Made by a program: the position numbers and the translations under genes
Source of the DNA: Candidatus Latescibacterota bacterium
GTDB lineage: Bacteria > Latescibacterota > UBA2968
Length of the DNA stretch: 64,000 nt
Reading direction: 5' to 3'
Assembly: GCA_022824945.1 (NCBI GenBank)
Contig: JAJDYX010000023.1
Location: 1 to 64,000, forward strand
Part shown: positions 2 to 9,991 of the stretch, piece after piece
How the letters are laid out: each line of letters opens with the position of its first letter
How positions within the stretch are numbered: position 1 is the first letter of the stretch
The notes under the pieces: model-generated
Databases searched by the model: none
What the model saw: the letters and a program-made list of their open reading frames with translations, nothing else
Told to the model about the DNA's origin: nothing

Positions 2-703
2 CAAGCCCCCCACCCTCCCTGGTCCCCCCCTCTGGACGACCTGCAGCGATATGATAAATCTGTATTGGATAGTCCCCCCAGCACGGACCGCGACGCCTGG
101 TTCAAGCACACAGGCTGGAATGCGGACTACGGTGTTGAAGAATTCAGGAAGCGGTACTTTGGGGAAATCTCTCAGTTGGACACCGCATTTGACCGCATAT
201 TGAAAACACTGGAAAAGACTGGACTGGCAAATGATACTGTCGTCATCTTCACATCTGACCATGGCGATATGGCCGGTTGTCATGGCTTGTTCGGAAAAGG
301 CGTCATGTTCGATGAGTCCATTCGCGTGCCCCTGCTCATTCGCGTACCCGGAACAGCACAACGCGCTATTGAAAACCCAGTATCTACAGTAGATCTATTC
401 GCCACGATTCTCCATCTGGCCGATGCTGAAAATCCAGGAGAAACTGAAGGACGCTCTTTGCTCCCCTGCCTGACTGGAGAGCCAGATATCTCAACCGATG
501 TCTTCATCGAACACAAAGATGATTGCATTATCAGGGGCGACGTAAAGCTAATGACAAAGCGAAACGAGAATGACATTACGCATTGCTTTGACCTGGCGAA
601 CGACCCGTATGAACTCAATAATCTGGCTCAGAGCCTGGACGACAAAGCCAGAGACAGCATGCTCCTCGCGCTCAACCAATGGAGAAATCGAACGAGGAGT
701 TGA
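2..703 (+). CDS. Sulfatase family hydrolase, 5'-truncated by window edge
   Basis: Frame is open to base 2 (QAPHPPWSPPLDDLQRYDKSVLDSPP...); sulfatase C-terminal half with VIFTSDHGDMAGCHGLFGKG and P-LIRVPG. Confidence 0.85.
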   Translation, partial: QAPHPPWSPPLDDLQRYDKSVLDSPPSTDRDAWFKHTGWNADYGVEEFRKRYFGEISQLDTAFDRILKTLEKTGLANDTVVIFTSDHGDMAGCHGLFGKGVMFDESIRVPLLIRVPGTAQRAIENPVSTVDLFATILHLADAENPGETEGRSLLPCLTGEPDISTDVFIEHKDDCIIRGDVKLMTKRNENDITHCFDLANDPYELNNLAQSLDDKARDSMLLALNQWRNRTRS

Positions 704-718
704 TTAAAAGGAGATTTA

Positions 719-2020
719 TTGATGAATGTACTTGTTTTGATGAGTGATCATCACAGATTTGATGCGTTGGGGTGCCTGGGGAATCCACTGGCTCATACGC
801 CTAATCTCGATCGTCTGGCCGAAATGAGTGTGCGATTTGACCAGTGTTATACACAGTCGCCTGTGTGTTCGCCAGCGCGGCACAGTTTGGCAACCGGCAA
901 ATATGTCCACGCACATGGCGTCTTTACCAATAACGCAATGCCTTATCCGGGGATGTACACAATTGCACATGCTGTGCAACCCTTGAATTATCGTCGGTTC
1001 CACCTGGGCCATATGCACTGGAAAGATCCCGATGTAGATAATGGCTACGAGCCAGAGATTACACAACAGATGTGGCGCGAGACAATGCCTGAGGATATGC
1101 TGGCCCGATATGATTGGGAAAATGAGGGCGTATTGCGGCGGTCATCTGGCGGACCAAGTCCGCGTAGTCGAGAGCAGTATTGGGGATATCATGTTGCGAC
1201 AGAGTCAATTCGGCAGATTGAAGAGGCCGTCAGTAAAGGGGAGAAATTTCTGTCCTGGACGAGTTTTACAGAGCCTCATCCCCCGTTTTATCCGCCCAAA
1301 GAAATTTATGAAAAGATCGACCAGTCAAAGATCGAATTACCAGAGCAAGCACCTGCTGATGCGCCCTTGCCTCACAGTGATATTTTGAGGAAACGGAAAG
1401 AGTGGGCGCATCTGACACCCGTGGAACTGCGGCAGGTAATTGCAGGATATTATGGGATGATAGAGCTTGTGGATGGGTATTGTGGAATGGTTTTAGATGC
1501 GTTGGATCGGTTGGGTATCAGAGACGAAACGATTGTAATCTGGACAGCAGATCACGGCGACCAGATGTGGGAACACGAGATGTTTTTGAAGTTTAATATG
1601 CGAGAGGCTTCGGCGCATGTGCCGTTGTTGATTTCTGATCCAAGAATACGATCAGGAGTGCGGGATGAACTGGTAGAACACATTGATTTGTTCCCGACGA
1701 TTTGCGATTTGATTGGGGCTGAGGTCCCTGACTCTGTACACGGACGTTCGTTGAAACCGTTGTTAGATGGAGAGCCGCCTCCAGGTGATTGGCGAGACGC
1801 GGTATTCAGCCAGATTGGTGATACTCAGATGGTTCGGACGGAGACGGAAAAATTGAATGTATATCAGGGTGAGGCAGGAGAGTATTTTGATTTGGCGGAG
1901 GATCCAAAGGAGTTTTATAATCGGATTGAGGATGAAAGATATCAAGAACACATAGGCGTGTTGTTTGAACGGGTGAAAGCGTGGGAGCGCGCGTATGAAC
2001 CTGATGACGGTCAGGGATGA
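719..2020 (+). CDS. Sulfatase (type I, FGly motif CSPAR)
   Basis: MSDHHRFDALGCLGNPLAHTPNLDRLA; SPVCSPARHSLATGK; IWTADHGDQMWEH. Confidence 0.92.
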   Translation: MMNVLVLMSDHHRFDALGCLGNPLAHTPNLDRLAEMSVRFDQCYTQSPVCSPARHSLATGKYVHAHGVFTNNAMPYPGMYTIAHAVQPLNYRRFHLGHMHWKDPDVDNGYEPEITQQMWRETMPEDMLARYDWENEGVLRRSSGGPSPRSREQYWGYHVATESIRQIEEAVSKGEKFLSWTSFTEPHPPFYPPKEIYEKIDQSKIELPEQAPADAPLPHSDILRKRKEWAHLTPVELRQVIAGYYGMIELVDGYCGMVLDALDRLGIRDETIVIWTADHGDQMWEHEMFLKFNMREASAHVPLLISDPRIRSGVRDELVEHIDLFPTICDLIGAEVPDSVHGRSLKPLLDGEPPPGDWRDAVFSQIGDTQMVRTETEKLNVYQGEAGEYFDLAEDPKEFYNRIEDERYQEHIGVLFERVKAWERAYEPDDGQG

Positions 2021-3336
2021 TCACATACAAGGCCCTTCACCTCCTGTAGCATCGGATCTTCCGTCTTCTCGGCCATCTGCACGAGTAGCCCTGCTAACCG
2101 CTTCTTCTCACCCGAAATCTGTGGCGCGTCGATGAGATTTTCCATCTCCAGCGGATCGGATTCGTGGTCATACAGGACATTGTGAATCCCTGGCGAAAAC
2201 ACGTAGCGACCATCCCATACGGCACGCCATCCGCCGGGCTGGCTCGCGCCACGGAGTCCCATATATACACAGTCGTTCTCCACGCCTTTTCCCTCCAGAC
2301 ACCAGCCCGCCATACTATCGCCCTGCATCACATCGGGAACCCCCAGTCCCGCCAGATCCAGAATCGTGGGCGTAAGATCCACGCTACTCACCAGCGCGTC
2401 ACACACCTGATTTGGTTTGATGCGATTGGGCCATCGCACGATGAACGGGATGCGAAACGCGGTCGCATAAGGACTTCCCTTGCCTCGAAAGTTGCGCTCA
2501 TCGGATTCGCAGTGACTGCCCAGCTTATCGCCGTGATCACTTACATAGACCACGATTGTATTGTCTGCAATTCCCAACTCCTCCAGACCAGCCATCACAC
2601 GTCCGATCTCCACATCCACTGCCGTTACCTGACCGTAATACATCTGGTAAAGCTCCCGAAGCTCGCGTTCCCGTTCTCCGAACCGTCCTTTCACATCGTC
2701 TGGCAGCTCAAAGGTATCAGGATCGTACATATCCAGATACTTCTGCGGACACTGTTCGGGCTTGTGCGGCGGGCCATATCCCAAATAGTAGAGCCAGGGA
2801 CGGCCAGCGTCGCGATTTCGTTTCGCAAAGTCCAGAGCCATATCCGTATGCCACGTCGGCTCCCAGTCGTAGCCTTCGATCCGCACCCTCTCGCGATTCT
2901 CGTTGTAGTCCCAGACTTCAAAAAACTCGTGCCCCTTCTGGTATCCGTGCCATTCCTGCCATCCCGCTCGCCTGGGACCTGGCGCAATGAATCCACCTCC
3001 TCCTCTGGGCTTGCCCCCATCCAGATGCCATTTTCCAATATAGCCTGTGGCGTATCCAGCGTCCGCAAACAGATCGGCAAACGTGATCAGTTCGGGATCC
3101 AGCAGAATATTGTTCACATCCACGCCGTGGGTATGGCAATACAATCCGGTCTGCATCGTCCCCCGAAATGGGGAACACACAGGGCTGGACGAAGCGCAGC
3201 GCGAGAACCGGATTCCCTCTGACGCAAGGCGGTCGAGATTCGGCGTTTTCACCTGCGAATCACCTGCACAACCCATCACTGTTCCGCGATGCTGGTCCGG
3301 CTGAATCACCAACACATTCGGCTTTTCATTCGACAT
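2011..3336 (-). CDS. Sulfatase (FGly motif CSPFR)
   Basis: MSNEKPNVLVIQPDQHRGTVMGCAGDSQVKTPNLDRLA; SPVCSPFRGTMQTG; VYVSDHGDKLGSH. ORF reaches 3393 but the internal Met at 3336 fits the family N-terminus. Confidence 0.92.
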   Translation of the reverse strand: MSNEKPNVLVIQPDQHRGTVMGCAGDSQVKTPNLDRLASEGIRFSRCASSSPVCSPFRGTMQTGLYCHTHGVDVNNILLDPELITFADLFADAGYATGYIGKWHLDGGKPRGGGGFIAPGPRRAGWQEWHGYQKGHEFFEVWDYNENRERVRIEGYDWEPTWHTDMALDFAKRNRDAGRPWLYYLGYGPPHKPEQCPQKYLDMYDPDTFELPDDVKGRFGERERELRELYQMYYGQVTAVDVEIGRVMAGLEELGIADNTIVVYVSDHGDKLGSHCESDERNFRGKGSPYATAFRIPFIVRWPNRIKPNQVCDALVSSVDLTPTILDLAGLGVPDVMQGDSMAGWCLEGKGVENDCVYMGLRGASQPGGWRAVWDGRYVFSPGIHNVLYDHESDPLEMENLIDAPQISGEKKRLAGLLVQMAEKTEDPMLQEVKGLVCDHP

Positions 3337-3540
3337 TATCGGTCCTCCATCGGTTGCTCCTACAGTACAATTCGTGACTCGACACAATAGCAACTTAGCC
3401 TTTGCGGGTCAAGCCCAGCCAAAGTAGGTCATAGAGCGTTTCCCAACTCTCCCTATCAGATGGTACTTGCACTCCCACCCTGTATGTCGTAGAATCTGAA
3501 TGCCCTTCATTGAGAGACTTCCTCAGAAAGGAGCGTGAAA

Positions 3541-4266
3541 ATGGCTGAGCCATGGAAATATATCCACACAAAGAGGGTATTGAACAAATACGGTTTGCCT
3601 GCCGGAGCCTTTGATCCGGAGGCACCGGGAGAGCAGACATACGACATCTACTGGATGAACATTCGGACGACGCGAGGGACTCCCAGCAGGTCTCACAAAC
3701 CTGAGGCTACACTCAGGATTTCCGCCAAAAATGAAGGCGAAGACCGTCATTTGGGAATTATCTGCTCGGACCTGAAGTTCGATAACACAACAAAAATTAA
3801 TGCACAATGCGAGAACAACGCACTCACATCTCCAAAGACCTGGACGCTAAAGTATTCCAACGGGAGCCGAGCGGGAAAAGGACTGGTTGAATACACCCAG
3901 AAAGGGGAAATCCGAAATAGCCGACTTTTGATGGATGGCAAAGAGCCTGCGCATTCAAAGACGCTTGGGACCTATACCGCCGACTGGTGTCTTTTTGACG
4001 CCGTCCAGCGGTTGGCCGCCAAAAAAGACACGACAAAGCACACATTCGACCTCATAGAAGAGTTCTCAATGATCCGGGAAAATCAGTTCCTGATTTATCG
4101 CGGGACATCGGAGATCACAACAGATCAAAGTGCTGTGACTGCCGATGTGTATTGCCATTACGGGGAATCCGTTATTCCCACCTGTTATTATGTAGATGCG
4201 AATGGGCGATTATTTCTGATGGTAAGTACGCGCAGGACGGTGATCCTCAAGAAGGAGGTGTCATAA
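3541..4266 (+). CDS. Hypothetical protein next to a sulfatase
   Basis: ~242-aa ORF, 3 bp before the downstream sulfatase; GTG start at 3535 also possible; no family recognised. Confidence 0.65.
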   Translation: MAEPWKYIHTKRVLNKYGLPAGAFDPEAPGEQTYDIYWMNIRTTRGTPSRSHKPEATLRISAKNEGEDRHLGIICSDLKFDNTTKINAQCENNALTSPKTWTLKYSNGSRAGKGLVEYTQKGEIRNSRLLMDGKEPAHSKTLGTYTADWCLFDAVQRLAAKKDTTKHTFDLIEEFSMIRENQFLIYRGTSEITTDQSAVTADVYCHYGESVIPTCYYVDANGRLFLMVSTRRTVILKKEVS

Positions 4267-4269
4267 GCG

Positions 4270-5535
4270 ATGGAACAAAGACCGAATATACTTCTGGTTA
4301 CGACCGACCAGCATAGTGCGGAAGCCCTTGGACATCTGGGGTGCAATGACGTGAAGACGCCCAGTATGGACCGCCTTGCAGCAAGGGGGATCAGCTTTGC
4401 AAAATCCTATAGCGCGAATCCAGTCTGCTGTCCGGCGCGGGCGAGCTGGTTTACCGGGCGCCATACACCCGAAAACGGCGTCGTGGCCAATGGTACCAAC
4501 ATGGTTCCGTCGATGCCAGACCTGGGACAATGGCTGAACAAAAATGGTTACAACGCCTACTACAGCGGGAAATGGCATATTCCCGGCAGAGATGTCGCGC
4601 AGAGTTTTCACCATATCTGCCCCGATCCGCGGAATACGGCTGAGACCGGAGACATTGCTTCGACCCGCAGTGCGATCGGTTTTCTCCAGAACTACCAGAA
4701 TAAAGAACCCTTCTTCCTGTCAGTCGGACTCTTGAATCCGCACGATATCTGCTCCTTTGTGCTGACGCATACGATGCACGATGGAAAGATGCCGTTCCCC
4801 GAGATTGACGACCTTCCTCCACTGCCTCCCAATTTTGAGATAGACATGGCGGAACCGGAAAGAGTCAGGAACTCCCGGAATCAGAAACTGGCAGACCGAG
4901 GCGAAGAATCTGGTATGGAAAAGTGGGAAGAGAAACTCTACCGTTACTATATCTGGACCTACTACCGGTACATTGAAAAGGTAGATGGACAGATCGGCTT
5001 GATCATAGACGCGCTCGAGAACTCAGCATTTAAGGACAATACGGTCGTGATCCTTACGTCCGACCACGGAGACGGACACCTTCGACACAAGATGGTCTTT
5101 AAGAGTTTTCTATACGATGAGGCCGCACGGGTGCCCTTTATCATGAGTTGGCCCGGTCACATCTCGGAACAGGTGATGGACCAGGAGCATCTCGTATCGG
5201 GCGTGGATGTTTTTCCGACCGTTTGTGACTATGCCGGGATCTCGCCGCCCCCTATGATGCGCGGATACAGCCTGCGTGCGATTGCTGAAGGGGAAAATCC
5301 AGACTGGCGGGATTTTGTGGTAGCACACGCCACCGGAGGCGGTAAAATGCTCCGCACCAACACACATAAGCTCATTACCTATGAGGGTGATCCAGTAATC
5401 CAACTCTTTGATATGGAAGCGGATCCCTGGGAAACCAGGAATCTGGCAGAAGCGTCCAACTCAAGGGCACTGGCAAGTGAAATGCAGGCATCCCTGACTG
5501 CGTTTGAGAGTGAATTCGAGTTGGCGGAGGTCTGA
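4270..5535 (+). CDS. Sulfatase (FGly motif CCPAR)
   Basis: MEQRPNILLVTTDQHSAEALGHLG; NPVCCPARASWFTGR; ILTSDHGDGH. Confidence 0.93.
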   Translation: MEQRPNILLVTTDQHSAEALGHLGCNDVKTPSMDRLAARGISFAKSYSANPVCCPARASWFTGRHTPENGVVANGTNMVPSMPDLGQWLNKNGYNAYYSGKWHIPGRDVAQSFHHICPDPRNTAETGDIASTRSAIGFLQNYQNKEPFFLSVGLLNPHDICSFVLTHTMHDGKMPFPEIDDLPPLPPNFEIDMAEPERVRNSRNQKLADRGEESGMEKWEEKLYRYYIWTYYRYIEKVDGQIGLIIDALENSAFKDNTVVILTSDHGDGHLRHKMVFKSFLYDEAARVPFIMSWPGHISEQVMDQEHLVSGVDVFPTVCDYAGISPPPMMRGYSLRAIAEGENPDWRDFVVAHATGGGKMLRTNTHKLITYEGDPVIQLFDMEADPWETRNLAEASNSRALASEMQASLTAFESEFELAEV

Positions 5536-7159: not shown

Positions 7160-7350
7160 CGGTACCAGCTTGTTTGCAGGATAGTTCGAGCCGGAAATCG
7201 TAACCTGATCTCAGTTTCTTTCTGATTATCGAAAATATCGCCCACTGCCCTAAACGGTAGCGGGCTTTCAATTTTGTACACCACTTTCTTATTCGTGCCC
7301 TCTAATATTATGAAAACGTCGCATAGAATTGAATTTTGGAAGCCTGCCAA

Positions 7351-9027
7351 ATGACTCAACCTGATAATGACACGGTTCTTATTCAGAAATCTGTGCAAGG
7401 TGACCGGCAAGCATTTAGTGAGTTGGTTGACCAGTATGGTTCTCTATTGCTTCAAACAGCTTATCGTTTGACAGGAAACTGGGATGATGCTCGGGATATA
7501 GTTCAGGAGGCATTACTCTATGCACACGCTTCATTGGATAGTCTAAGAGATCCACAGCGTTTTCTTCCCTGGGTTCGAGCCATTATCTATCGAACATATC
7601 AAAGCCATAAGAAAAAGCAGACGCGACGCATAGAATTATTGAATTTCTATATCTCCGCCGAAGGAAATGATCCCTCAATTTCTGCTCACTCCATACTTCC
7701 AGATCAATACCTATATCAGAAAGAACTGGCCTCTCTACTCCATCATTCTCTTCAATCATTAACCGAGCGCAACAGACGCATTGTTGAATTGTTCTATCTT
7801 GAAGATTGGCCGATCAGAAAAATCAGCGACTTCCTTAAACTTTCAACAGATACAATAAAAAACCGACTTCGCAACGCCCGCATTCAAATGAGAAAGGAGA
7901 TATTGGAAATGCAAACACTGAATCCAATGCCCCGACTGAAACCGCAGCGTATCGCCCGTTTCGAAATATCAGGGAGTTTTTCCGGTGATTCTTCTAACCC
8001 GTTTGGGTTAAACAATACCCTGTTGTATCAACGCATACTGGCAGCCTGTCGAAAAACGCCTCTTACGCCATTTGAATTAGCAAAGCGAATTGATGCTGAT
8101 GAAGCTTATGTCATAGACGCTTTGTTATCGTTGCTCGAAATGGAGATTATTGCAGAAGCAGCGCCCAACCATTATGTTGCAAATTTCTTTTTTCCAACCG
8201 TTTCAGATGATCAATTTTTTTTAGACCGATGCCAGCCGTATGTCAAAAAAGTGACTCACGAGTTACAAACGAATCTGACTACTATCAAGAAGGCAATTGC
8301 TGACTGTTCTTTTAATCAATGGGGATTCGGTTGGCATGAAATACACTGGATTGTTCTGTATGAATGGTTGCCTCAGCCTCCAATCCCAGGCCAACCCAAA
8401 CCACTATCTGAAAAAGAAATAAACCGATTTATGGGACCGCTTAGACCCGATGGTGGCCGCTGGTATTTATCGGGCCATGACCTGACTTCCCCTTTCTCGG
8501 AAAGAACAGGCAGTCGTGCTTTCACCGAGTATGATGGCTCAGGAAGACACTATAAAGTGAATTGGCCTGGTTCGGGAAGACTCATGAAAGAGAAGGAATT
8601 TGCGATTGCAGTGAAGTTAGCTACCGGTCCAAAAACTGAAACAGAGATACTGGCGGGCTTGTCCAATGAAATTGGAAGGGAAGTTCTCGCCGAGTGTATG
8701 GATGCGGGCTTTATAACGCGAATTGATGGATGCTACCAACTCGGATTCCCGTTTGTTCGACCCGAGGATGAAAAAAAGATCGCAGATGCCTTACGTCCTG
8801 TATCGGATGCGCTTATTGAAGCTCGAGAGGAATGGCAGGTAGAGGCACCAAATGTAGCGAAGGAATTGGGATTCGACTGGCTTATAGAGAATCAACCAGA
8901 CGCTTTAATGTCAGGAATCGAGGGACTTTGGGGATTGAATCAGCAATTGCAAGCGGAGGGACTTATTCATCCCCCTCCGGATGATAATCCCTGCTGGGCT
9001 ATGTGGGCAAAAGTCTGGAAAGCTTGA
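7351..9027 (+). CDS. ECF-type RNA polymerase sigma factor with long C-terminal extension
   Basis: Sigma2-like FSELVDQYGSLLLQTAYRLTGNWDDARDIVQEALLYA; sigma4-like LTERNRRIVELFYLEDWPIRKISDFLKLSTDTIKNRLRNARIQMRK; ~370-aa extension. Confidence 0.88.
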   Translation: MTQPDNDTVLIQKSVQGDRQAFSELVDQYGSLLLQTAYRLTGNWDDARDIVQEALLYAHASLDSLRDPQRFLPWVRAIIYRTYQSHKKKQTRRIELLNFYISAEGNDPSISAHSILPDQYLYQKELASLLHHSLQSLTERNRRIVELFYLEDWPIRKISDFLKLSTDTIKNRLRNARIQMRKEILEMQTLNPMPRLKPQRIARFEISGSFSGDSSNPFGLNNTLLYQRILAACRKTPLTPFELAKRIDADEAYVIDALLSLLEMEIIAEAAPNHYVANFFFPTVSDDQFFLDRCQPYVKKVTHELQTNLTTIKKAIADCSFNQWGFGWHEIHWIVLYEWLPQPPIPGQPKPLSEKEINRFMGPLRPDGGRWYLSGHDLTSPFSERTGSRAFTEYDGSGRHYKVNWPGSGRLMKEKEFAIAVKLATGPKTETEILAGLSNEIGREVLAECMDAGFITRIDGCYQLGFPFVRPEDEKKIADALRPVSDALIEAREEWQVEAPNVAKELGFDWLIENQPDALMSGIEGLWGLNQQLQAEGLIHPPPDDNPCWAMWAKVWKA

Positions 9028-9042
9028 TAATATAAAATCGTG

Positions 9043-9861
9043 CTACTCACGCTTGTCATCGCGAAACCGAAATGCTTTGCCTCCTACTATCTGATCACTT
9101 GTAACGGTTGGACACCAGTATTTTTCGATATGTTCGAGTGTGAGATCTGTGCCCTGGAAATGACCTCCGTGATCACAGTGATGGGAGTCGGTCAGATCGC
9201 GACACAGCAATGGTTTCTTACCCAGATAGACGAGTTGACGAATACCAAATGGACGACCGAGTACGCAGATGTTCGCAGCAACACCCATCACGATTACGTT
9301 CTCAATGCGTTGAAGCAGATTATATACTTCCTGACCATCATCGCTAATCGCATCCTCCTCTACAATCTCAATCGTCTCAATCTGGCGAATCCAGGGAGCA
9401 ACCCCCTCCTTACAACAAGGCTCTGGGGTATGGCATGAGCACGGTCCTGGATTGGTGATTCCAATCGGTAATGGTGATTCTTCGAGTTGACAAATCTCGC
9501 GGGGTTGGTCCCACCCGTTCCATCTGAATTCAACAGAAGCCTCTACAAAGGGTGCTTCCTGGGCGCGTTTGCGTTGCGGTGTCTCGTCGTAGAATCCCAT
9601 ACAGCCGCTGGGAGCGTGTATGATCAACGCACCTTCTTTTCGAATGCCTGCTATGACTTCATTCATGCGAGGTGCCATTTCAGCGACCCGTTCGGCAGTG
9701 GAAATGCAGTGATGGGTATCCCACATATCACAGATGATAACAGCGGCTTTCGCAGGAACCCACTCTACTGTTTCTATCGCGATTTCGAATGTGTCCGTGC
9801 TATCGTCAGCTTTCGCACGTATGCGTGTATTCAAAGTAAATCCAGCCATAGCTTTCTCCAT
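9043..9861 (-). CDS. Isochorismatase-like cysteine hydrolase
   Basis: AAVIICDMWDTHHC...; IVMGVAANICVLGRPFGIRQ catalytic Cys context. Confidence 0.82.
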   Translation of the reverse strand: MEKAMAGFTLNTRIRAKADDSTDTFEIAIETVEWVPAKAAVIICDMWDTHHCISTAERVAEMAPRMNEVIAGIRKEGALIIHAPSGCMGFYDETPQRKRAQEAPFVEASVEFRWNGWDQPREICQLEESPLPIGITNPGPCSCHTPEPCCKEGVAPWIRQIETIEIVEEDAISDDGQEVYNLLQRIENVIVMGVAANICVLGRPFGIRQLVYLGKKPLLCRDLTDSHHCDHGGHFQGTDLTLEHIEKYWCPTVTSDQIVGGKAFRFRDDKRE

Positions 9862-9991
9862 GAAAAATCACCGATTCTTAGCATTGTAGATCACCATATA
9901 TCACAGTATATTGATGGTATCTGTAAAAAAAGATAAACTCTATAACAAGTAAAGAGTCAAGAAAAAATCCAGTTGGTGATGGAGTTATTTT

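Follow-up and report, generated by a model that had tools for sequence, protein, structure and literature searches.

A solitary ECF sigma factor with a tail of two homologous winged-helix modules: a dispersed family and a candidate on-board regulator

How might an ECF sigma factor be controlled when no anti-sigma gene adjoins it and some 370 of its residues lie beyond the sigma domains? The question is raised by a gene in the window, the 64,000-nucleotide stretch of Latescibacterota DNA analyzed here, in which a plus-strand open reading frame at 7351..9027 encodes a protein of 558 aa (the ATG lies at 7351, and a TTG stands in frame at 7336). Pfam matches that exceed the cut-offs place sigma-70 region 2 at residues 25-93 (7423..7629; PF04542, E = 4.3e-11) and region 4 at residues 130-182 (7738..7896; PF08281, E = 7.8e-9; PF04545, E = 5.3e-8), within the first ~185 aa where a first-pass annotation had read sigma2 and sigma4 motifs; sigma3 is absent. 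NCBIfam groups the first 185 aa with ECF factors, SigW-like models scoring highest, and by domain content the product is classed as an ECF sigma factor. Its neighbors encode an EamA transporter, a DUF2442 protein, and an isochorismatase-like protein, so the earlier statement that no anti-sigma gene is adjacent was correct.

The rest of the protein had been described as no part of a standard ECF factor, and indeed no Pfam, NCBIfam, or PADLOC model covers the tail as a whole. For residues 190-558, no Pfam or NCBIfam family scores above its curated cut-off, the only matches being sub-threshold winged-helix ones at residues 222-270, and PADLOC models give no defense match to the protein. As predicted from the family alignment and an AlphaFold model, the tail opens with a linker (residues 190-216; 7918..7998, plus strand, as are all parts that follow), which carries the family-conserved P198, R200, G208, and G212 and a predicted strand at 202-207. 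Winged helix 1 (residues 222-279; 8014..8187), as placed by AlphaFold and profile matches, is followed by long helix 1 (284-317; 8200..8301) and by helices at 320-339 with an invariant W333 (8308..8367). A central segment (8428..8568), modeled at lower confidence, holds a conserved R-x-D-G-G (365-369) and strands at 372-403. Beyond it lie winged helix 2 (413-467; 8587..8751), delimited by AlphaFold and module homology, long helix 2 (471-505; 8761..8865), and C-terminal helices (506-558; 8866..9024) with conserved P516, G522, L538, and P541. None of 25 family members shows a clear predicted transmembrane segment, and their tails share no conserved cysteine. A Foldseek search against the PDB returned sigma-factor structures among its best 50 matches and therefore says nothing about the tail.

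Two segments of the tail had been noted as alike, each a winged-helix-like unit, and the self-alignment of the two halves that had been suggested bears out the resemblance. Sub-profiles of residues 217-345 and 408-540, built from 25 family members, align with a probability of 84%, a P value of 7.4e-6, and a score of 37.0, against 10.6 +/- 1.8 (maximum, 16.4) for 200 column-shuffled controls. This homology becomes significant only after relatives are added, the hhalign comparison with four near-identical sequences alone giving a nonsignificant E value of 0.22. AlphaFold gives both modules the same order of helix-helix-helix-strand-strand, a helix of ~34 residues, and then short helices: H224-232/H240-246/H251-263/E267-271/E274-277 followed by H284-317 in module 1, and H414-425/H430-433/H439-452/E455-458/E461-464 followed by H471-505 in module 2. 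With the 25-row alignment, pLDDT is ~75-89 over most of both modules (67 overall; pTM, 0.49), up from 52 in a first model made before relatives were added. Independent support for a winged helix in module 1 comes from matches to the ArsR, MarR, IclR, and Rrf2 families, obtained both with several individual members and with the profile. By alignment and predicted structure, then, the two tail segments are homologous modules, each a winged helix plus a long helix, the fold being strong for module 1 by profile match and assigned to module 2 by its homology to module 1.

Are these winged helices built to read DNA? If they were, the protein would be a fusion of a sigma factor with an operator-binding regulator, adding promoter selectivity or repressing its own gene. 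The winged-helix order of both modules would fit such a role, as would the DNA-binding nature of the families that module 1 matches and a transcribed leader, just downstream of the promoter-like site described below, that looks conserved in one Paenibacillaceae clade. The charges point the other way, however. Winged helix 1 has a net negative helix 3 in every one of the 25 members (mean, -3.2; range, -1 to -6), whereas the sigma4 recognition helix of the same members averages +3.2 (range, +2 to +5), and helices 2 and 3 of module 2 are together negative or neutral in all members but one. Winged helix 1 thus lacks the basic or neutral recognition helix that is usual for DNA-binding winged helices, and although module 1 shares its fold with ArsR and MarR regulators by profile match, the modules here differ in having an acidic recognition helix, in standing in tandem, and in being fused to a sigma factor. 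With such acidic recognition helices, the modules probably contact protein rather than read DNA, and we regard the operator-binding explanation as improbable.

The tail architecture is not peculiar to the window's genome. Two other genomes of the genus hold close orthologues (89-95% identity over the extension), and a third has a partial copy that lies at the end of a contig; a different family of the same Latescibacterota class has a full-length relative (26%). When the full-length profile was run in one Firmicutes family, matching open reading frames extended beyond the sigma domains; the family is the Paenibacillaceae, as the genes beside two matches in one genome (G682) are 98-99% identical to those of Paenibacillus cellulosilyticus. 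Full-length relatives have open reading frames of 530-600 aa with the same order of parts, and the Paenibacillaceae extensions, at 356-372 aa compared with 369 in the window protein, are collinear with it throughout. In a BLASTP comparison of the window extension alone with one of them (L106), 160 aa align at E = 2e-7, and the motif P-x-R-x-D-G-G-R falls within this stretch. With a profile of ten extensions, full-length or nearly full-length members were found in 37 of 250 Paenibacillaceae genomes, as counted by hand from the profile-search rows. A further member, WP_013483710.1, resides on the conjugative plasmid pRUMAL02 of Ruminococcus albus 7 and matches a Paenibacillaceae member with E = 4e-32 and the window protein with E = 1e-4 over 435 aa. 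Extension identity across phyla is low, about 15-26%. In the tree, whose branches are long and whose deep nodes are weakly supported, the Latescibacterota members group together. In intact copies, the extension is under purifying selection comparable to that on the sigma part (dN/dS mostly 0.1-0.45). By these matches, the architecture is that of a family scattered over Latescibacterota, Paenibacillaceae, and Ruminococcus. A four-row profile of the extension alone gave no match above noise in 386 relatives or in 251 genomes of one class (that of G115), and weak Latescibacterota matches to residues 130-170 of module 1 were dropped as noise level. Four Paenibacillaceae ECF factors of 530-555 aa (L111-L114) were rejected as members, their extension being unrelated; they form a different ECF family with its own well-conserved C-terminal extension of ~350 aa.

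Whether such an architecture had already been described was left open in the first-pass annotation. A 2022 review (PMC8999054, Table 2) places under "others" two groups with extensions of unstudied mechanism, ECF262, with its model from R. albus, and ECF264, with its model from Saccharibacillus (Paenibacillaceae). These groups resemble our family in having a regulatory extension and no anti-sigma factor, and the same taxa hold the family, but the Latescibacterota extensions are only about 15-20% identical to the Firmicutes ones. The family is probably ECF262, ECF264, or a relative, the link being one of taxon overlap only, and its Firmicutes part may already carry an ECF group number. Of the characterized extensions reviewed there, SnoaL in ECF41/56, TPR in ECF42, zinc finger plus membrane helices in ECF48/52/53, and the cysteine-rich tail of ECF238, none is matched here. 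ECF41 (SigJ, Ecf41Bli) and ECF56 (SigG1) are the nearest in concept, in that their soluble C-terminal extension has been proposed as a conformational-switch substitute for an anti-sigma factor (PMC8999054), but that extension is SnoaL-like and the window protein has no SnoaL match. ECF42 likewise has a long cytoplasmic extension and no anti-sigma factor, but the window protein has neither a TPR match nor a conserved partner gene. The fused zinc-finger anti-sigma domain and transmembrane helices of ECF48/52/53 are both missing, and the CorE-like ECF238 factors share on-board regulation but have a cysteine-rich tail, whereas no cysteine is conserved in this family. On the sequence features compared, ECF41/56, ECF42, ECF48/52/53, and ECF238 are excluded as the identity of the window protein.

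The gene also appears to carry its own promoter. A promoter-like site, ACACC-N17-CTCTAATA, identified by motif comparison, lies 44-73 bases upstream of the ATG (7278..7307, plus strand) and is a candidate self-recognized ECF promoter. Within the genus, the five genomes with the gene or a remnant of it each have a single ACACC-N16-18-CTCTAATA, and the six genomes without it have none; this motif matches the Firmicutes one only approximately. At the corresponding position, 55-85 bases before the start, Firmicutes members have (C)CCAACC, in some with one letter changed, separated by ~16 bases from CACTAT, CAGTAT, or CTACTT. The pattern nAACC-N17-20-TA is found in seven of eight representative upstream regions, whereas 2000 shuffle sets average 1.2 such regions and never exceed 5; these figures are descriptive, because the pattern was set after the sites had been inspected. 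A stricter regular expression missed several members on account of spacing. CCCAACC-N14-16-RCACTAT stands before the member's own gene in seven of eight genomes searched, and six of these seven have no other match, although such scans cover exact sites and degenerate further targets are possible. Conservation of the promoter motif is evident, ECF factors are usually read as autoregulated, and we infer that family members recognize their own upstream site.

Genome comparison indicates that promoter and gene form one unit. The cassette occupies 7240..9042 (plus strand), between the EamA and isochorismatase-like genes. Two genomes of the genus (G001 and G003; loci L188 and L189) are collinear with the window up to 7162-7164, at the end of the EamA gene, and again from 9043, with no trace of the sigma gene and other small genes in the slot, and a third (G007) shares 7240-9967 as one block. 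At two G682 loci, both flanks are collinear with P. cellulosilyticus KACC 14175 at 80-91%, and about 1.8 kb comprising the sigma gene and promoter region is missing from the latter. Gene and promoter are therefore present or absent as one self-contained unit in both phyla. In G009 (L024) and G039 (L028), a large internal deletion has joined the start of the gene to its end, leaving only the gene ends; these remnants arose independently in two lineages. One further family copy has an internal stop. Such clean presence and absence, together with decayed copies, marks the gene as a dispensable, self-contained unit. No terminal repeats were noticed by eye, no mobility gene was seen, and when neighbors within ~4 kb were clustered for 17 loci of Paenibacillaceae and Latescibacterota, together with those of the window's genus and R. 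albus, the sigma gene itself was the only family shared across the loci. One Paenibacillus copy (L177/L179) lies directly downstream of an apparent tRNA-Ser gene, read by eye, and an apparent terminator, and a sister strain has the same site without the copy. The window also holds closely spaced sulfatase-type genes in a row at 65-5535, and relatives have repeated close copies of them.

What, then, would the tail do? We put at about 60% the probability that the protein is a soluble, solitary, self-regulated ECF sigma factor with an on-board regulator. On this reading, the half with sigma2 and sigma4 would bind RNA polymerase and promoters, including one before its own gene, and direct transcription there. 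The tail of ~370 aa would replace an anti-sigma factor, keeping the sigma half inactive or active, and would flip on a cytoplasmic cue, a ligand, or a protein partner, as the architecture and the missing partners suggest. The winged helices, to judge from their charge, would make contacts with protein and might cover the basic faces with which the sigma domains bind DNA. Because the gene is solitary, has its own promoter-like site, and has no conserved partner genes, the protein probably senses and switches by itself. The first-pass annotation had suggested a built-in sensor or regulator; regulator is the likeliest role, supported by the architecture and the missing partners, and the tail would inhibit or activate sigma and may itself sense the signal.

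An alternative that we also consider unlikely, on a par with operator binding, is that the tail, in the way proposed for ECF42 or ECF115, depends on protein-protein interaction or on controlled proteolysis rather than on ligand sensing of its own. Such a mechanism is proposed for other extended ECF groups (PMC8999054), and the long helices and acidic surface suit protein contacts, but no partner or protease gene is conserved alongside. Less probable still is a more specific version of on-board regulation, in which the twin acidic winged helices would mimic DNA as an anti-sigma device on the promoter-binding faces of sigma2 and sigma4, with the sigma factor's own gene as its main or only direct target; this would be a one-gene, self-amplifying switch that genomes of different phyla gain and lose as a cassette of promoter plus gene. 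That the sigma factor is a selfish or nearly neutral one-gene element, mainly transcribing itself and drifting in and out of genomes, is very unlikely: the promoter-like site, near-unique motif, lack of conserved neighbors, clean presence and absence, and decaying copies would suit it, but intact copies are under purifying selection, neither mobility gene nor terminal repeat was seen, and clean loss of a dispensable regulator would look identical.

On our preferred reading of an on-board regulator, the family is of interest because extended ECF factors transduce signals within one protein and dispense with an anti-sigma factor. It offers a duplicated winged-helix module and, for each member, a predicted self-recognized promoter, and both culturable hosts (Paenibacillus and R. 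albus) and naturally gene-free sister strains exist. With a clear architecture, predicted promoters, such hosts, and gene-free sisters, the idea of the tail as a switch is directly testable. New here, from sequence comparison, are the promoter-like sites of Firmicutes members, the lack of conserved neighbors, the cassette behavior, and the acidic recognition helices.

The window's own genome holds further extended sigma factors. One, a 465-aa ECF factor (L003; G000:C56:79110 onwards), has residues ~186-465 that resemble beta sliding clamps, its C-terminal ~280 aa matching 7ybd_A by phmmer (E = 7e-5) and three more clamps more weakly. Another (L007; G000:C14:80476 region) has an extension with an apparent membrane segment, read by eye, and a third (L009; G000:C56:116961 region) is fused to a 3-keto-disaccharide hydrolase/DUF1080-type domain (PF06439, E = 2e-11).
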